This document shows positions 14,828 through 24,743 of a DNA stretch of 64,000 bases, piece by piece. The stretch's first letter is position 1, and every line of letters starts with the position of its first letter. The notes beneath the pieces are model-generated. The model saw only the letters and a list, made by a program, of their open reading frames with translations, searched no databases and had not been told where the DNA came from. Origin of the DNA: Streptomyces sp. JH14 (lineage in GTDB: Bacteria; Actinomycetota; Actinomycetes; Streptomycetales; Streptomycetaceae); assembly GCF_029428675.1 (NCBI RefSeq), contig NZ_JAJNEL010000001.1, positions 5,208,001 to 5,272,000 on the forward strand, in the 5' to 3' direction. The position numbers and the translations under genes are program-made.

Positions 14828-15409
14828 CTACTTCAGGCGGGCCATCAGCGCATGCTCCACGAGCGTGATCAGGCCGCTCTTCGCATCGCCGCGGTGGCGT
14901 GCGTCCGTCGTGATGATCGGGGTGTCGGGGCCGATCTGCAGGGCCTCGCGCACCTCGTCGGGGGTGTAGGGCTGGTGTCCGTCGAAGCCGTTGAGGGCGA
15001 TGACGAAGGGCAGTCCGCTGTTCTCGAAGTAGTCGACGGCGGGGAAGCAGTCGGCGAGACGGCGGGTGTCCACCAGGACGACGGCGCCGATGGCACCGCG
15101 GACCAGGTCGTCCCACATGAACCAGAACCGGTCCTGGCCCGGTGTACCGAAGAGGTACAGGATCAGGTCCTGGTCCAGGGTGATACGGCCGAAGTCCATG
15201 GCCACCGTCGTGGTGGTCTTGCCGCCGGTGTGCGTCAGGTCGTCGATGCCCGCGGACGCGGACGTCATCACGGCTTCCGTACGCAGCGGGTTGATCTCCG
15301 AAACGGCACCGACGAACGTGGTCTTACCCACGCCGAAACCGCCCGCCACCACGATCTTCGCGGAGGTGGTGGCCCGGGCCGCACCGCCGCTAGAGCTTGC
15401 GAAGTCCAC
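14828..15409 (-). CDS. cvnD1: Conservon small GTPase-like protein CvnD (copy 1)
   Basis: 193 residues, the same length and architecture as the D gene at 9521: P-loop GGFGVGKTT, switch-like FGTPGQDRFWFMW, and C-terminal ITLVEHALMARLK. Differences are at six positions (for example Ala13 for Ser, Gly63 for Asp, and Lys for Arg at the end). DNA identity to the other copy is far higher than the flanking cvnA genes show, pointing to gene conversion or recent copying. The start is GTG at 15409, inside cvnC1 by 20 bp. Confidence 0.93.
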   Translation of the reverse strand: MDFASSSGGAARATTSAKIVVAGGFGVGKTTFVGAVSEINPLRTEAVMTSASAGIDDLTHTGGKTTTTVAMDFGRITLDQDLILYLFGTPGQDRFWFMWDDLVRGAIGAVVLVDTRRLADCFPAVDYFENSGLPFVIALNGFDGHQPYTPDEVREALQIGPDTPIITTDARHRGDAKSGLITLVEHALMARLK

Positions 15410-15797
15410 TGAGCACCCTTTCGAGCAGTGTCACATCCGGCGCGCCGCCGGCCTCTCCGTTGCCCGGCTGGTGGATGGCCACCATGCCGGCTTCCGCCAG
15501 GTCCGCAACAAGGATCCGGGCCACACCGAGCGGCATCGACAGCAGCGCCGAGACCTCGGCGACCGACTTGACCTCACGGCACAGGTGGCAGATCCGCTGG
15601 TGCTCCGGGAGCAGGGTCCCCAGGTGCGCCGGGTCGGCCGTGGTCGAGACCAGCGCCTCTATGGCGAGCTGGTAGCGCGGCCGGGTCCGGCCGCCGGTCA
15701 TGGCATACGGACGGACCAGCGGCTGGTCGCCTTCACCTTCGTACGACGCGTTGTGCAGCGCGCCGTACGGATCGGGTGAGGCGGGTGGCGGGGTCAT
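15390..15797 (-). CDS. cvnC1: Conservon DUF742 protein CvnC (copy 1)
   Basis: A 135-residue DUF742 protein containing LVRPYAMTGGRTRPR and ending LLERVLSGLRKL like copy 2, but with only a 25-residue N-terminal lead instead of a 100-residue Gln/Pro-rich one. The two cysteines in RICHLCREVKSV are also present in copy 2 (RICRLCFEIKSV). ATG at 15797 follows GGAGGATTC. It overlaps cvnD1 by 20 bp and lies 133 bp after cvnB1. Partner of the conservon complex; molecular function unknown. Confidence 0.92.
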   Translation of the reverse strand: MTPPPASPDPYGALHNASYEGEGDQPLVRPYAMTGGRTRPRYQLAIEALVSTTADPAHLGTLLPEHQRICHLCREVKSVAEVSALLSMPLGVARILVADLAEAGMVAIHQPGNGEAGGAPDVTLLERVLSGLRKL

Positions 15798-15930: not shown

Positions 15931-16353
15931 CTAGTGGAGCAGGCTGCCCTGGAGCTCGGCGCGCAGGTCGGGGGTCAGGACGGTTCCCGCGCGGTCGACC
16001 AGAAGGGCCATCTCGTACCCGACCAGACCGATGTCGGCGTCCGGGTGGGCGAGCACGGCCAGCGACGAGCCGTCCGAGACGGACATCAGGAAGAGGAACC
16101 CGCGCTCCATCTCCACGACGGTCTGGCTGACGGCGCCGCCCTCGAAGATCCGGGAGGCGCCCGCGGTCAGCGAGGTGAGCCCGGAGGCGACGGCCGCCAG
16201 CTGGTCGGCGCGGTCACGCGGAAATCCTTCGGACATGGCCAGCAGGAGTCCGTCTGCGGAGACCACCACCGTGTGCGACACCCCGGGGGTGTTGTCCACG
16301 AAGTTGGTGATCAGCCAGTTCAGATTCTGTGCGGCCTGACTCATCGGGCTCAA
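15931..16353 (-). CDS. cvnB1: Conservon roadblock/LC7 protein CvnB (copy 1)
   Basis: 140 residues with the roadblock/LC7 fold, nearly identical to copy 2. The homologous start is TTG at 16353, directly after the cvnA1 stop (TAG then TTG), with AGGAG 7 nt upstream; ATG at 16344 would shorten it by three residues. The matching position in copy 2 is GTG, so this codon is probably used in both. It would act with CvnD1 as an MglB-like regulator. Confidence 0.93.
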   Translation of the reverse strand: MSPMSQAAQNLNWLITNFVDNTPGVSHTVVVSADGLLLAMSEGFPRDRADQLAAVASGLTSLTAGASRIFEGGAVSQTVVEMERGFLFLMSVSDGSSLAVLAHPDADIGLVGYEMALLVDRAGTVLTPDLRAELQGSLLH

Positions 16354-19300
16354 CTAACGCTCCTGCTGGTGAGTGGGGCCGAGTGGGAAACTGCCGGTCG
16401 ACGGGCCGTTGTTGTTGGCCTGCCGCCCCTGCTGGATACCCCGGCGGAGATTGGTCAGACGCCCGCGCACGTCATCGGGCGCACGCGAGACCTGGGGACC
16501 TGACTGATGGCTCTGCTGCTGGGCGGTGCCCGGCACCAGATTGGCACGCGGTACCCGGCGAGGCAGACCGGAAGTGGTGATTCCGCCTGCTGCGGGCTTC
16601 TTGGCCCGCTCCGCCTGCCGTACGAGTTCGTCGTTCGGCGAGGCACGCCAGGACGTGGTGCCGGCGCCCGTGTCACCCGCACCGCGACGCGGCATCGGGG
16701 GAGTGGGACGGCTCTGTGCGGCGGGCCGCTGTGGGGCGGCGGCCGGTGCCTGCGGCTGCTGCTGACCGCCCTGCTGCGGGCCGTGGAACCAGTTCGTCTC
16801 CAGGGTGTCGTACAGCGGTGTACGACCGTCCCCGGGGCCGGCCGCCGGAGGCAGCGCCTCGGGCTGCGGCTGCGGCGGCAGCACCGGACGGTACTGCGCC
16901 TCGTTCGCCGGAGCGGGGGCGGGACGCGGGGGACGGAAGTCCTCGTTGTCCCGGCCGCGCTGACGCGGTGCCGGCAGCCCCTGGTCCTGCGAGGGCTGCG
17001 GGCGGCCGAAGTCCGGGCGGGCGAACTGAGCGGTGCCCGCCGGGTCCTGGTACTGCGGGACCTGGTTGTGCGGCGCCGGTGCCGAGAAGTCGGGGCGGGC
17101 GAACTCGGCGGTGGAGCCGGGGCCCTGCCGGTCGTCGAGCGGCGGGCGCTGGCCCATCGAGGGGTTCATCGGCCGCTGGAACTGGCCGCTGGACTCGGGC
17201 TCCTCGTGACCGCGCGGGGCGTCGAGCGGAGCACGCCGCCCCGCCGACGGGTCCTCGGTGCCCCAGCTGGCGGCCTGCGGACGCTGCGGCTGCGGATTGC
17301 CACCGGGCAGCTCGGCACGGGGACCGCCGACGGGCGGCAGCTGACGGCCGGGGCCGCCGGACTGCTGGAAGCCGCCCTGGTTGTCGGGGGCGTTGTGCCG
17401 GGCCTGCTGCGGCTGCGGCGCCTGCCGTCCGGCCGGACCGTTCTGCTGGCCGGGCTGCTCGTACTGCCCCGGCCGGCTCTGGCCGAACAGGTTGGTCTGA
17501 CCGGGCTCCGTACGGCCGGGGTCGCTCTGGCCGCCCCGGGCGCCGAGCCGGGCACCGCCGCCGAAGGCACCGGCGGCTCCGCCGCCCTGACGCGGCGGCT
17601 CCTGACGCGAGAAGTCCTGCGGGCCGTTGCCGGACATCCCGGCGTTCTGGAAGCCGGCGTTCTGCTGGCCCTGCTGAGGCTGCTGGTTCGGCTGGCCCTG
17701 CTGCTGGCGGGGGCCGCCGTCGCGCGCCGGCAGTGCGGCCCGCGGACCGGAACCCGTACCGACCTGCCCGCGCGGCGCACCGGCCGTCGCGCCGAGACCC
17801 CGTGCGGCCGGAGCCCCCGGAGTACCGCCGAGCCCGGGACGGTTGCCGCCCCGGTCGCCCGACTGCTGGCCCGCGGCCTGCTTCGACGGCGGCTGCTTGC
17901 CGCCGTGCGCGACATCGACGGGGAGCATGACCAGCGCGGTCGTACCACCGGAGTCGGAGGGCCGCAGCTGGATCCGGATGCCGTGACGCAGGGACAGCCG
18001 GCCGACCACGAACAGACCCATGCGACGGGAGACCGAGACGTCCACGGTGGGCGGCGACGCGAGCCGCTCGTTGATGGCCGCGAGGTCCTCGGGGGAGAGA
18101 CCGATACCGGTGTCGTGGATCTCCACGAGCACCCGGCCGTCGGGCAGCGCGTGACCGGTGACCCGGACCTTCGTCTGCGGCGAGGAGAACGATGTGGCGT
18201 TCTCCAGCAGCTCGGCGAGCAGGTGCACGAGGTCGTTGACCACGCGGCCGGCGACCTCGGTGGCGGGCACCGCGGCCAGTTCGATGCGCTCGTACTGCTC
18301 CACCTCGGAGGCGGCGGCACGGAGCACGTCGACCAGCGGGACGGGGCGGGTCCACCGGCGGCCCGGCTCCTCGCCCGCGAGGACGAGGAGGTTTTCGCCG
18401 TTACGGCGCATACGGGTCGCGAGGTGGTCGAGCTTGAAGAGTGAGGACAGCTGGTCCGGGTCGGCCTCGCGCGACTCCAGCTCGGAGATGAGCGAGAGCT
18501 GACGCTGGATGAGACCCTGCGAACGCCGCGAGAGGTTGGTGAACATCGCGTTGACGTTGCCCCGCAGCAGGGCCTGCTCGGCGGCGAGGCGGACTGCCTC
18601 ACGGTGCACGTCGTCGAAGGCCGCGGCCACCTTGCCGATCTCGTCCCGGGAGTGCACACCGACCGACTCGACCGAGGTGTCGACGTCCTGCGGGTCCGCC
18701 TCGGAGAGCTGCTTGACGAGCTCGGGCAGACGGTCCTGGGCGACCCGGGTCGCCGTGTCCTGCAGTCGCCGCAGCGAGCGGATCATGGACCGGGCGACGA
18801 CGAAGGCGCCGACCAGCGAGACACCGAGCACCAGCAGGATGAGCGCACCGCTGATGATGGCCTCGCGCTCCGACTGGTCGCGAAGCTCGCGGGCCTTGCC
18901 CTCCATGTCGCCGAGGAGGGTCTCCTCGATGGTCTTCATCGCCTGGATCTTGGTGGAGCTCTGGTCGTACCAGTCCAGGTACGAGCGGCGCGACGTGCCC
19001 TTCATGCCCGTGGGGCTGTCGAGCACCTTCTGCGCGTAGGTGTCGGCCGCCTTGATCTCCGGGTTGCCGTTCTCCAGCGTGGCCGTCAGTTCCTCGGCGT
19101 TCTGGCCCGTGGCCGTGTACGTCGCGTTGAACGACTTCAGCGCCAGCGTTTCCTTCTTGAGGGCGGCGCGGCCGAACTGCTGGTCGTTCTGGTCGAAGTG
19201 CGGTGCCTTGTCGTTGCCGCTGGGCAGTGCGGCAGCGATGATCGCCCGCTGCACCGACGCGTACTCCTTGGCGGAGGAGAACGCCGCCAGGGCGCGGGTG

Positions 19301-20049
19301 CGCTTGATCATCTCGGGGTTGCTGGTCGCCTGCGCCATGTCCTGCGAGAGGCTCAGCAGCAGGGTGATCAGCTGGCTGTACGCGTCGACGGTCTGGAGGC
19401 TCGGGGTGTCCGCCTCGTACGCGCTCTTGCGGATGTCGCGGATCTGGCCCAGCTGGCTGGAGATCTGCGCGACGCTCGCGTGGATGCCCTCGAGGGCCTC
19501 GTCGCCGTCGGTGTTGCCGATCGCGCTCGTCGCGTCGAAGAACGCGGCCTTCGCCCGGTCGGTCTTCTTGCGCGGCTCGGTCACCTTGAAGTCGGTGGCC
19601 TTGACCCCGTTGGACAGCGGACCGGCCGACCGGTCGCGCTCCTCCTGGAGCGCCTGGGCGAGCGAGGTCGCCTGCTTGGTCATCTGGGTCAGCAGCTGCA
19701 TGTGGTCCAGCTGCTGAATGTCGTTCATGGAGTCGTTGATGCGCAGACCACCCAGGGTGGTCGCGGCGACTACCGGAAGGGCGAGCAGCGAGACCAGGCG
19801 CGTACTGATGCGCCAGTTGCGAAGAGCTATCCGCGAGCCCGTATTGATCGGACCGCGGGCCTTGAGCGCGGCCACCTGATCGGCGCCGCTGCTCGCCGCG
19901 GCAGCCGAGCGCGGGGCACGGTCGCTGCTGTCGCCGGCCGCGGCCGGTCCGGGGTTCTGGGCGTGCTGGGGCGAGGAACCGCGGTCGGTCCCGCCGCGCG
20001 GCTCCTGTTCCGCCGCAGCGCTGCCATCCCTCTTGAAACGTCCCTGCAC
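16354..20049 (-). CDS. cvnA1: Conservon sensor kinase-like protein CvnA (copy 1)
   Basis: A 1231-residue membrane sensor: TM1 at about 84-101 (LVSLLALPVVAATTLGG), NIT-type extracytoplasmic domain to about 395 (contains ATSLAQALQEERDRS, typical of the domain), TM2 at about 398-420, HAMP-like linker, LDHLATRMRRNGENLL (about 545), GHKL ATPase with LLAELLENATSF (about 607) and HDTGIGLS. About 525 C-terminal residues are a Gln/Pro/Gly/Arg-rich disordered tail ending in VSRAPDDVRGRLTNLRRGIQ, a motif shared with copy 2. The frame is open to 20340, but GTG at 20049 is preceded by AGAGGTTG at the same 11-nt spacing seen in copy 2, so I choose it. No response regulator is nearby; signal and output are unknown. 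Confidence 0.9.
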   Translation of the reverse strand: MQGRFKRDGSAAAEQEPRGGTDRGSSPQHAQNPGPAAAGDSSDRAPRSAAAASSGADQVAALKARGPINTGSRIALRNWRISTRLVSLLALPVVAATTLGGLRINDSMNDIQQLDHMQLLTQMTKQATSLAQALQEERDRSAGPLSNGVKATDFKVTEPRKKTDRAKAAFFDATSAIGNTDGDEALEGIHASVAQISSQLGQIRDIRKSAYEADTPSLQTVDAYSQLITLLLSLSQDMAQATSNPEMIKRTRALAAFSSAKEYASVQRAIIAAALPSGNDKAPHFDQNDQQFGRAALKKETLALKSFNATYTATGQNAEELTATLENGNPEIKAADTYAQKVLDSPTGMKGTSRRSYLDWYDQSSTKIQAMKTIEETLLGDMEGKARELRDQSEREAIISGALILLVLGVSLVGAFVVARSMIRSLRRLQDTATRVAQDRLPELVKQLSEADPQDVDTSVESVGVHSRDEIGKVAAAFDDVHREAVRLAAEQALLRGNVNAMFTNLSRRSQGLIQRQLSLISELESREADPDQLSSLFKLDHLATRMRRNGENLLVLAGEEPGRRWTRPVPLVDVLRAAASEVEQYERIELAAVPATEVAGRVVNDLVHLLAELLENATSFSSPQTKVRVTGHALPDGRVLVEIHDTGIGLSPEDLAAINERLASPPTVDVSVSRRMGLFVVGRLSLRHGIRIQLRPSDSGGTTALVMLPVDVAHGGKQPPSKQAAGQQSGDRGGNRPGLGGTPGAPAARGLGATAGAPRGQVGTGSGPRAALPARDGGPRQQQGQPNQQPQQGQQNAGFQNAGMSGNGPQDFSRQEPPRQGGGAAGAFGGGARLGARGGQSDPGRTEPGQTNLFGQSRPGQYEQPGQQNGPAGRQAPQPQQARHNAPDNQGGFQQSGGPGRQLPPVGGPRAELPGGNPQPQRPQAASWGTEDPSAGRRAPLDAPRGHEEPESSGQFQRPMNPSMGQRPPLDDRQGPGSTAEFARPDFSAPAPHNQVPQYQDPAGTAQFARPDFGRPQPSQDQGLPAPRQRGRDNEDFRPPRPAPAPANEAQYRPVLPPQPQPEALPPAAGPGDGRTPLYDTLETNWFHGPQQGGQQQPQAPAAAPQRPAAQSRPTPPMPRRGAGDTGAGTTSWRASPNDELVRQAERAKKPAAGGITTSGLPRRVPRANLVPGTAQQQSHQSGPQVSRAPDDVRGRLTNLRRGIQQGRQANNNGPSTGSFPLGPTHQQER

Positions 20050-20628
20050 TAGCGTCGCAACCTCTGGACCAGGCGTCCCCCCGCGTAGACGGGCAGGACG
20101 GTGTCGGCGTCGTGGGGCGTTGTTTCCCGCCCCATGGTGGTCGTGAGTGACCGGCGCTCTTCCCCTTCCCGCCGCCACTCGGCGCTGCGTTGCGCCCCTG
20201 CGCGCCGGCCTGAAACCCGCGGCGGTGCGTGGAATTCCAGCACAGTGCCGGATCTCCAACAAGGCCCAGGCGCCACGCTGTGACCGGAGTGACACGGTGT
20301 GACGGCTTGGTAACCAGGCGTGGAGAGTGTTCACGGGCAAAGCGGATCATTACCGGTTAATCAGATGCGCCCGAGAGGTGTCCCAGTCGACATGATCAGG
20401 AGCGGAATGGCTGATTCAGTGGCGCAATGTCCGTTTTCTCGATCACGATCGAGCGTCCGGAATGGGGCAATTGTCGACGACTTCGTGAGCAAACTCACAT
20501 GATGATCGCCGTCTCATCCGGGGATCGGGCGGGAATTGGATGTTTAGCCTGGCGCTTTACAGGGATGGCAAATCCGACAACCGGCGCCCCTCCGGGTGGC
20601 GCCCGTAGCGACAGGGTCCGAACGGCAG
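20050..20628. other. Long divergent regulatory region before cvnA1
   Basis: These 579 bp separate cvnA1 (minus) from the small repeat protein (plus). GTGAC occurs three times in 20278-20305. A palindrome CTCGATC-AC-GATCGAG is at 20438-20453, and GTGAG-CAAA-CTCAC is near 20486-20499. Base composition from about 20330 to 20580 is clearly more A/T-rich than coding DNA, as expected for promoters. Short open frames here lack coding bias and I do not call them. Confidence 0.5.
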
Positions 20629-20811
20629 ATGAAGACGACGATGATGTTCCGCAACATTGCCAACCCCCGGCGCACCACGCTGGCGCACCTCGAGGACGCC
20701 GAAGCGCTGCAGACGCCGGAGCAGCCGGAGCACGCCATCGACCTGCCGACGCAGACGGCCAACCCACGGCGCACCATCCTGATGACAGCCCCGGCCGCCG
20801 CCACCGAGTAA
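20629..20811 (+). CDS. Small protein with duplicated ANPRRT motif
   Basis: A 60-residue protein that I cannot assign to a family. It contains the motif ANPRRTTL near residues 11-18 and ANPRRTIL near 44-51, joined by an acidic, Pro/Glu-rich linker (HLEDAEALQTPEQPEHAIDL). Codons are strongly G/C-ending, which supports translation. There is no signal peptide, membrane segment or cysteine. The ATG at 20629 has only a weak AGGG signal; ATG at 20641 or 20644 is possible. It lies between divergent cvnA1 and the fumarylacetoacetase-family gene 83 bp downstream on the same strand. I recall a small hypothetical gene at this place in S. coelicolor (SCO5545), so it may be conserved. The two copies of the same octapeptide could be docking sites or processed units; that is speculation. 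Confidence 0.65.
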   Translation: MKTTMMFRNIANPRRTTLAHLEDAEALQTPEQPEHAIDLPTQTANPRRTILMTAPAAATE

Positions 20812-20893: not shown

Positions 20894-21679
20894 GTGCGCA
20901 TCGCCAGGTTCTCCATCGACGGCAATGTCGCGTTCGGCGCGGTCGAGGGCGACGGCACCGTCGACTCCGGCGACCTCGTCCTCGACATCATCAAGGGCAT
21001 CCCGTACGTCGACTTCGAGCTCTCCGGTACCAAGGTCCCGCTGAGCAAGGTCCGGCTGCTGCCGCCCGTGCTCCCCAACAAGGTCGTGGCCATCGGCCGC
21101 AACTACGCGGAGCACGCCGCCGAACTCGGCAACGAGGTCCCGGAGGTACCGGTCGCCTTCTTCAAGCCCACCACGTCGGTGATCGGCTCCGGGGACGCCA
21201 TCGAGTACCCCTCCTTCTCCGACGACGTGCATTACGAGGGTGAACTGGCCGTGGTCATCGGCCGGATGTGCCGCGAAGTGCCGCGTGAGCGCGTCAAGGA
21301 CGTCATCTTCGGCTACACCTGCGCCAACGACGTCACCGCCCGCGATGCCCAGAAGCGTGAGAAGCAGTGGGCCCGGGCCAAGGGCTTCGACACGTCCTGC
21401 CCGCTCGGCCCCTGGGTGGAGACCGACCTCGACCCCAGCGATCTCGGTGTCCAGACCACGGTCAACGGCGAGCAGCGCCAACTGGGCCGTACGAGCGAAA
21501 TGATCCGCTCCATCGAGGATCTGGTCGTCCACATCACGGAGGCCATGACGCTGCTTCCGGGCGATGTGATCCTCACGGGCACCCCGGCAGGGGTCGGTCC
21601 CCTGCAGGTCGGCGACGAGGTCGCCGTCACCATCGAAGGCATCGGCACTCTCACCAACAAGGTGATCAAGCGTGGCTAA
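20894..21679 (+). CDS. Fumarylacetoacetate hydrolase family protein
   Basis: A 261-residue protein of the FAH superfamily, metal-dependent enzymes that hydrolyse or decarboxylate beta-keto acids. The catalytic core shows the conserved [22 protein letters not shown] and the metal ligands in [12 protein letters not shown], then DVTARDAQ, and [13 protein letters not shown] near the C-terminus. Such single-domain members usually act on acylpyruvates or similar catabolic intermediates; the substrate cannot be read from sequence. GTG at 20894 follows GAGGGG at rather long spacing. The last 8 bp overlap the gltX start, so the two genes are translationally coupled. Confidence 0.9.
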
Positions 21680-24249: not shown

Positions 24250-24321
24250 TGGGCTATGGTGTAATTGGCAACACTACGGTTTCTGGTACCGTCATTCTAG
24301 GTTCGAGTCCTGGTAGCCCAG
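24250..24321 (+). tRNA. tRNA-Gln (CTG)
   Basis: The acceptor TGGGCTA pairs with TAGCCCA; anticodon arm ACGGT-TTCTGGT-ACCGT gives anticodon CTG; T-arm contains GGTTCGAGTCC. No CCA is encoded. An identical copy lies at 24565. Confidence 0.95.
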
Positions 24322-24346
24322 CGCAGAGCTTCATCTGTAACAACAC

Positions 24347-24419
24347 GCCCCCGTTGTGTAGCGGCCTAGCACGCTGCCCTCTCACGGCAGTAGCGCCGGT
24401 TCGAATCCGGTCGGGGGTA
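24347..24419 (+). tRNA. tRNA-Glu (CTC)
   Basis: The acceptor GCCCCCG pairs with CGGGGGT; anticodon arm CTGCC-CTCTCAC-GGCAG gives anticodon CTC; T-arm GGTTCGAATCC. First of three identical copies. Confidence 0.95.
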
Positions 24420-24479
24420 CAGATCCTTCCCGCGAGATCATCAGGGTCGCACCCATGATCTCGATGCAGGATCGCTAGG

Positions 24480-24552
24480 GCCCCCGTTGTGTAGCGGCCT
24501 AGCACGCTGCCCTCTCACGGCAGTAGCGCCGGTTCGAATCCGGTCGGGGGTA
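24480..24552 (+). tRNA. tRNA-Glu (CTC)
   Basis: Same sequence as the copy at 24347, with anticodon loop CTCTCAC. Separated from it by 60 bp containing an ATCATGGGTGCGACC-like inverted stretch. Confidence 0.95.
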
Positions 24553-24564
24553 CTTGTAACACCA

Positions 24565-24636
24565 TGGGCTATGGTGTAATTGGCAACACTACGGTTTCTG
24601 GTACCGTCATTCTAGGTTCGAGTCCTGGTAGCCCAG
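24565..24636 (+). tRNA. tRNA-Gln (CTG)
   Basis: Identical to the tRNA-Gln at 24250, including the TTCTGGT anticodon loop; 12 bp after the previous tRNA-Glu. Confidence 0.95.
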
Positions 24637-24656
24637 CGCAAGATGCAGTAAAATAC

Positions 24657-24729
24657 GCCCCCGTTGTGTAGCGGCCTAGCACGCTGCCCTCTCACGGCAG
24701 TAGCGCCGGTTCGAATCCGGTCGGGGGTA
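24657..24729 (+). tRNA. tRNA-Glu (CTC)
   Basis: Third identical tRNA-Glu, followed after 13 bp by a hairpin terminator that probably ends the whole tRNA transcript. Confidence 0.95.
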
Positions 24730-24743
24730 CAACAGAGCAGTAA

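Follow-up and report, generated by a model that had tools for sequence, protein, structure and literature searches.

A small gene with two ANPRRT motifs, near-universal in the Streptomycetaceae and divergent from conservon 1

Some conservons are accompanied by accessory proteins encoded beside the operon and outside its four core genes, such as the cytochrome P450 CvnE and the GAF-domain protein CvnF (e.g., CvnF8 of S. coelicolor), and these overwhelmingly accompany a CvnA without a sensory domain (PMC13343842). As for conservon 1, a review, in the portion available, reports that CvnA1 acts through SigU to promote aerial mycelium and the production of the antibiotics ACT and RED (PMC9739842), and the earlier note's description of this operon as having no known output is accordingly outdated. 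As for the gene on the opposite side of the cvnA1 control region, SCO5545 (PMC4595836) and sven5239 (PMC4850268) are only named beside cvnA1, with no function given, in the available text of the two papers that mention them. The small gene analyzed here is probably the counterpart of S. coelicolor SCO5545, judging from its position and from the sequence of a binding site, and, by position, would likewise correspond to S. venezuelae sven5239.

Neither the protein nor a profile built on it has a match in Pfam (to E 1 for the protein), NCBIfam, PHROG, PADLOC or the PDB sequences, or among phages or plasmids; a single one of 60 members gave a weak family match, to DUF6255 (E 0.054). The idea that it is a fragment of an ArsR-type HTH protein was rejected, as no HTH profile matches it. 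The motif strings are likewise absent from the literature searched, subscription papers and supplements being outside its reach. With no family match, and with locus tags that are merely named in the literature, the family is probably annotated but undescribed. To that extent the earlier note's view of it as a candidate for an undescribed component is supported, as we found neither a database family nor a describing paper.

Within the window (the whole 64,000-nucleotide stretch of Streptomyces sp. JH14 that was analyzed), the gene runs from ATG to TAA at 20629..20811 on the plus strand and encodes 60 residues, MKTTMMFRNIANPRRTTLAHLEDAEALQTPEQPEHAIDLPTQTANPRRTILMTAPAAATE, an assignment supported by the ORF list, by homologues and by pN/pS. 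The two motif copies described earlier are indeed present: ANPRRTTL at residues 11-18 (20659..20682, plus strand) and ANPRRTIL at residues 44-51 (20758..20781, plus strand). The repetition of this basic octapeptide had been called exact; the two copies stand, and they match at seven of eight positions, so the repeat is not quite exact. When the protein was shuffled 20,000 times, a 7-of-8 octapeptide pair arose once. Two further descriptions were borne out, namely the acidic 25-residue linker (six acidic residues, no Lys or Arg) and the strong coding bias, GC at codon position 3 being 0.93. An AlphaFold2 model from 60 sequences has a mean pLDDT of 63 and a pTM of 0.17, and lacks strands and any helix longer than three residues; this would fit a mostly disordered protein, a low pLDDT being no proof of disorder.

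The gene behaves as a true one, near-universal in the Streptomycetaceae and under selection. A protein search of 61 genomes matched 35 of the 37 genomes of the same genus; outside the family, it gave a single weak match (E 0.006). Of the same genus, G010 and G001 went unmatched, and G001 is incomplete (79%) and has no close cvnA1 either. Among Streptomycetaceae, 288 of 297 genomes were matched by the protein search, the nine others comprising three of g15, four of g18, G074 (g28) and the incomplete G197 (71%). Diverged versions with both motifs in the same place were recovered by profile search in G061 (g15) and in G064 and G079 (g18); from G074 and G010 the small gene is absent. Class-wide, strong matches were found in 40 same-genus genomes out of 394 genomes searched, and the other matches were weak (E 4e-4 to 0.02), numbering five, or 16 with a broader profile. 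Fifteen genomes from other families of the same order yielded one match, at E 0.05. Ten places with weak matches, outside the family or elsewhere in a genome, were read (six of the eight fetched earlier and all four from the broader profile), and none holds two copies. Because strong matches are confined to the Streptomycetaceae, we regard this as a Streptomycetaceae family at this search sensitivity. A 74-residue frame in L322 (G582) contains LPATTANPKRTIA once. Topoisomerase mimicry was considered and rejected: EYANPRRTVLMDS occurs in a ParC-like protein of G607, at E 0.0035 in one of 394 genomes, which is chance level, and the gene's own genome has KKFGTDRRTVLLES in its ParC-like protein and KFGDDRRSKL in its GyrA-like protein (both names are our reading of PF00521 matches).

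Selection on the gene is centered on the duplicated motifs, while the linker is weakly constrained in sequence and length. For 3000 random pairs among 162 distinct gene sequences (pS 0.24-0.45), pN/pS is 0.011 in copy 1 and 0.148 in copy 2 (residues 43-51), compared with 0.55 (residues 2-10), 0.67 (linker) and 0.74 (C-terminal tail). In the motif copies, pN is 0.004 and 0.055 against a pS of 0.34-0.37, indicating selection on the amino acids. The spacing from copy to copy ranges from 30 to 54 residues, and most of the distinct proteins (129 of 171) have a spacing of 33; in distant genera, little beyond [T/I]ANPRRTxL is still recognizable.

The earlier note had allowed that homologues might lack the repeat, but 196 of 197 homologous loci keep both copies, a count that, like those below, is conditional because the filter applied demanded most of the motif core (A-NP[RKQLN]RT, with ANVRRT also admitted for copy 2). 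Two of the 198 loci filtered failed: L136, a true homologue that reads ANPRRI in copy 1 and retains the gene, and L197, a chance match in G074. Of the loci that entered the set, 80 had been collected by means of motif-derived peptide patterns, and 79 of these passed; the other 118, mostly best-scoring loci, came from genome searches that used no such pattern, and 117 of them, all but L197, passed. There is some redundancy in the set: L189 and L198 represent one gene, and some strains were reached by more than one search. Deviations from ANPRRT affect 15 of 342 copies in 171 distinct proteins, 14 at the first Arg and one at the Pro. A Thr precedes copy 2 in all 171 distinct proteins, a position that the filter did not require.

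The placement divergent from conservon 1 was confirmed by domain searches, which identified, all on the minus strand, cvnA1 (16354..20049), a histidine-kinase-like sensor with NIT (E 2.3e-48), HAMP and HATPase domains; cvnB1 (15931..16353; Roadblock/LC7); cvnC1 (15390..15797; DUF742); and cvnD1 (14828..15409), a small GTPase (Pfam ATP_bind_1). The N-terminal region of cvnA1 lies divergently upstream of the small gene in all 195 loci with enough flank, as counted by tblastn without composition statistics (with them, cvnA1 was missed in 12 loci), and the median distance to the first aligned cvnA1 base is 578 bases (183 loci). On the other side, the next gene downstream encodes an FAA-hydrolase family protein (20894..21679, plus strand), with gltX following it in the window. 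This linkage is not constant: 184 of 192 loci have the FAA-hydrolase gene at a distance of no more than 1.5 kb, the exceptions being L137, L166, L174, L176, L007, L040, L073 and L179. It stands approximately 1.8-1.9 kb from the small gene in L137 and L166, and was not found in stretches of 12.8 and 16 kb (L263, L265) from the genomes of L174 and L176. Nor was gltX found in stretches L259, L263, L265, L271, L276 and L277. The steady neighbor is thus cvn1. The other arrangement that the earlier note had named as refuting its idea, a gene found without any conservon and always in the gltX operon, was not encountered: cvnA1 accompanies the gene wherever it could be looked for, and the gene is not tied to the gltX side. 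At the place usually taken by the FAA-hydrolase gene and gltX, downstream of the small gene, L263 and L265 carry a convergent gene that reads as acyl-CoA-carboxylase-subunit-like. Five tRNA genes (Gln-Glu-Glu-Gln-Glu) lie downstream of gltX in the window, at 24250-24730.

Conversely, G010 and G074 possess cvn1 and the FAA-hydrolase gene but lack the small gene. In other families, nine cvnA-like loci have no two-motif ORF in the 2.6 kb taken as upstream; their cvnA genes are 36-59% identical where aligned, hence only "cvnA-like", and L318 aligned over the middle part only. Cvn1 therefore does not need the small protein, and the constant linkage to cvnA1 may reflect nothing more than common promoter DNA. 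CvnA1 has a variable C-terminal tail (residues 1158-1174), where short stretches such as TTSGLPRRVPRANLVPG and RGRLTNLRRG are better conserved than their surroundings (72 sequences) and resemble docking motifs. GLPRRVPRANL in this tail was rejected as a relative of the small-protein motif, with which it has only PRR in common.

An alignment of 21 upstream regions revealed four strongly conserved blocks in the DNA between the two genes. The one on the cvnA1 side (20236..20264, minus strand; core GGATCTCCAACAAGG with up to three mismatches in 180 of 196 loci) is probably the cvnA1 promoter. The block GTGTCCCAGTCGACATGATCAGGAGCGGAATG (20378..20409; core CATGATCAGGAGCGGAATG with up to four mismatches in 166 of 196 loci) is upstream of a promoter-like element of the small gene. 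Between this block and that element is the palindrome GTGAGCAAACTCAC (20485..20498; up to two mismatches in 190 of 196 loci), which we take to be BldD-box-like. The promoter-like element itself, GTTTAGCCTGGCGCTTTAC (20542..20560, plus strand), in which TAGCCT could serve as a TANNNT-type -10, is found with up to four mismatches in 161 of 196 loci, and at up to three mismatches it is the sole match in the genome assembly; a sigma-70 scan, however, found no promoter. G010, which lacks the small gene, offers a natural deletion: the cvnA1-side block is largely kept and GTGAGCAAACTCAC survives, whereas CATGATCAGGAGCGGAATG and the promoter-like GTTTAGCCTGACGCTTTAC are missing. On the strength of this one genome, we tentatively assign the two surviving elements to cvnA1 and the two missing ones to the small gene. 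The possibility of an upstream ORF was also rejected. The block GGATGTTTAGCCTG reads MFSLTLY, but this frame contains stops in some loci, varies in phase relative to the gene, and lacks its ATG in four loci of distant genera (L170, L171, L172 and L175); GGATGTTTAGCCTG is therefore read as a promoter-like element. The leader (20542-20628) contains a semi-conserved CCGACAACC(C/G)GCGC, which in two of 196 leaders (L112, L171) reads TANPRRT in frame with the gene, upstream of its start, with no ATG, GTG or TTG before it. As for an RNA element in the leader, there was no Rfam match up to E 1, and folding was no better than that of shuffles (z 1.14).

Several regulators have been reported at this region. 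In the available part of PMC4595836, sco5544-5545 is an EMSA-confirmed ScbR2 target with the possible site GGAATGATGCCTTCAGGTGTGCAA (Table 2), which aligns to the end of block GTGTCCCAGTCGACATGATCAGGAGCGGAATG and its 3' flank, making 20404..20427 the putative counterpart of that site. The same source gives expression ratios in the scbR2 mutant of 1.024 and 0.952 for sco5544-5545 (0.952 for SCO5545), i.e., unchanged. The conservation of the block at 20378-20427, ScbR2 site included, in 166 of 196 loci suggests that it could serve another, more general regulator. Moreover, according to those portions of the papers that are available, BldC targets cvn1 directly, and BldD and WhiAB bind there too (PMC6428758), cvnA1/sven5239 is a WhiB target (PMC4850268), and the cvnA1 promoter is among those repressed by WblC (PMC7157823).

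The best explanation, which we hold tentatively and just short of probable, is that a disordered two-motif protein docks bivalently onto a dimeric partner, most likely a component of Cvn1. The retention of the motif pair while the rest drifted indicates that the partner is probably gripped by two identical hooks; conserved motifs, a loose linker and a structureless model would fit a spacer that carries the same docking motif twice. The working parts would be two copies of the linear motif [T/I]-A-N-P-R-R-T-x-L on a short, mostly disordered protein, each docking into the same kind of pocket, with the linker acting mainly as a spacer, such that a single molecule could hold on to the two halves of a dimeric or clustered partner. 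The gene is linked to cvn1 and has a separate conserved promoter-like element; it would be expressed from its own promoter within the control region common to cvnA1. The partner to be favored would be a component of the Cvn1 G-protein system, and the small protein would then tether or damp CvnA1/B1/D1. Expression, binding, bivalency, partner and direction of effect are in this scheme what we infer. A more specific version, in which the protein is a Streptomycetaceae-specific extra component of Cvn1, disordered, with two ANPRRT hooks by which it would bridge a Cvn1 dimer or block it, subject to the developmental regulators that bind the cvnA1 region, appears rather unlikely to hold in full. Little is known about the partners of conservons or their output, and the small gene provides an easy handle on the developmental conservon cvn1; even if the partner is not Cvn1, an almost invariant motif throughout so large a family of antibiotic producers implies an undiscovered binding pocket.

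It is quite possible that the same bivalent protein has a partner unrelated to Cvn1, such as a developmental regulator, chaperone, protease or kinase present throughout the Streptomycetaceae, and that its adjacency to cvnA1 reflects a shared developmental control region. What speaks against this alternative is that the gene has stayed next to cvnA1 in all 195 loci, when its link on the FAA-hydrolase side has been broken several times, while the small gene's own promoter-like element, lost together with it in G010, the existence of cvn1 without the small gene in G010 and G074, and the reported targeting of the cvnA1 promoter region by BldC, BldD, WhiAB, ScbR2 and WblC (in the available parts of the papers cited above) all agree with it.

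Other readings dispense with a docking partner of this kind. Two Asn-Pro-Arg-Arg turns, which presumably resemble SPKK motifs, could contact the DNA minor groove in an SPKK- or AT-hook-like manner, as might a pair of short basic turns joined by an acidic linker. We consider such nucleic-acid binding improbable: each copy has only two Arg, the linker is acidic, and the Ala, Asn and Thr beside the Arg are also conserved, which suggests a shaped protein pocket. It is equally improbable that the protein serves a Ser/Thr kinase or an FHA-domain protein as substrate or decoy, the Thr that follows Arg-Arg being the acceptor. That Thr is present in both copies of 171 distinct proteins, although the filter required it, but L136 has retained the gene with Ile at this position in copy 1. 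No replacement by Ser was seen; the filter excludes Ser, but as it removed only L136 and the non-homologue L197, Ser at the acceptor position is at most rare.

Usual peptide precursors have a conserved leader and a variable core. The earlier note's suggestion of a precursor of a modified peptide found no support. A short repeated peptide in a small ORF would suit a processed or modified product, but here it is the core that would be conserved and the leader that would vary, the immediate neighbors are cvn1, the FAA-hydrolase gene and gltX (the latter two absent near some copies), and there is no family match, making this reading very unlikely. A chance ORF or a leader peptide over conserved DNA is scarcely credible: the weak Shine-Dalgarno would favor it (a 4-base core occurs in 76 of 196 loci, AAGG, AGGT or AGGG alone in 100, and none of these in 20), but the motifs combine a pS of 0.34-0.37 with the very low pN given above.

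We return to the preferred reading, that of a bivalently docking protein, in comparing the locus with known systems. Bivalent adaptors that work through short linear motifs are a general kind of protein. The small protein is like them in its two strongly conserved copies, weakly constrained linker and low-confidence, structureless model, but [T/I]ANPRRTxL matches no family searched and the partner here is putative. It differs from RiPP precursors in that no maturation enzyme is among the nearest genes (cvn1, FAA hydrolase, gltX) and in that its repeated motif is the conserved part rather than a variable core. As with CvnE and CvnF, the gene stands beside a conservon and outside the four core genes; in contrast to those accessories, however, it is transcribed divergently from the conservon, its product has neither a P450 nor a GAF domain by family search, and the CvnA1 next to it has a NIT sensor of its own. 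SCO5545 and sven5239, in the available text of the papers that name them, share with the small gene a place with cvnA1 at a region targeted by ScbR2 and WhiB.
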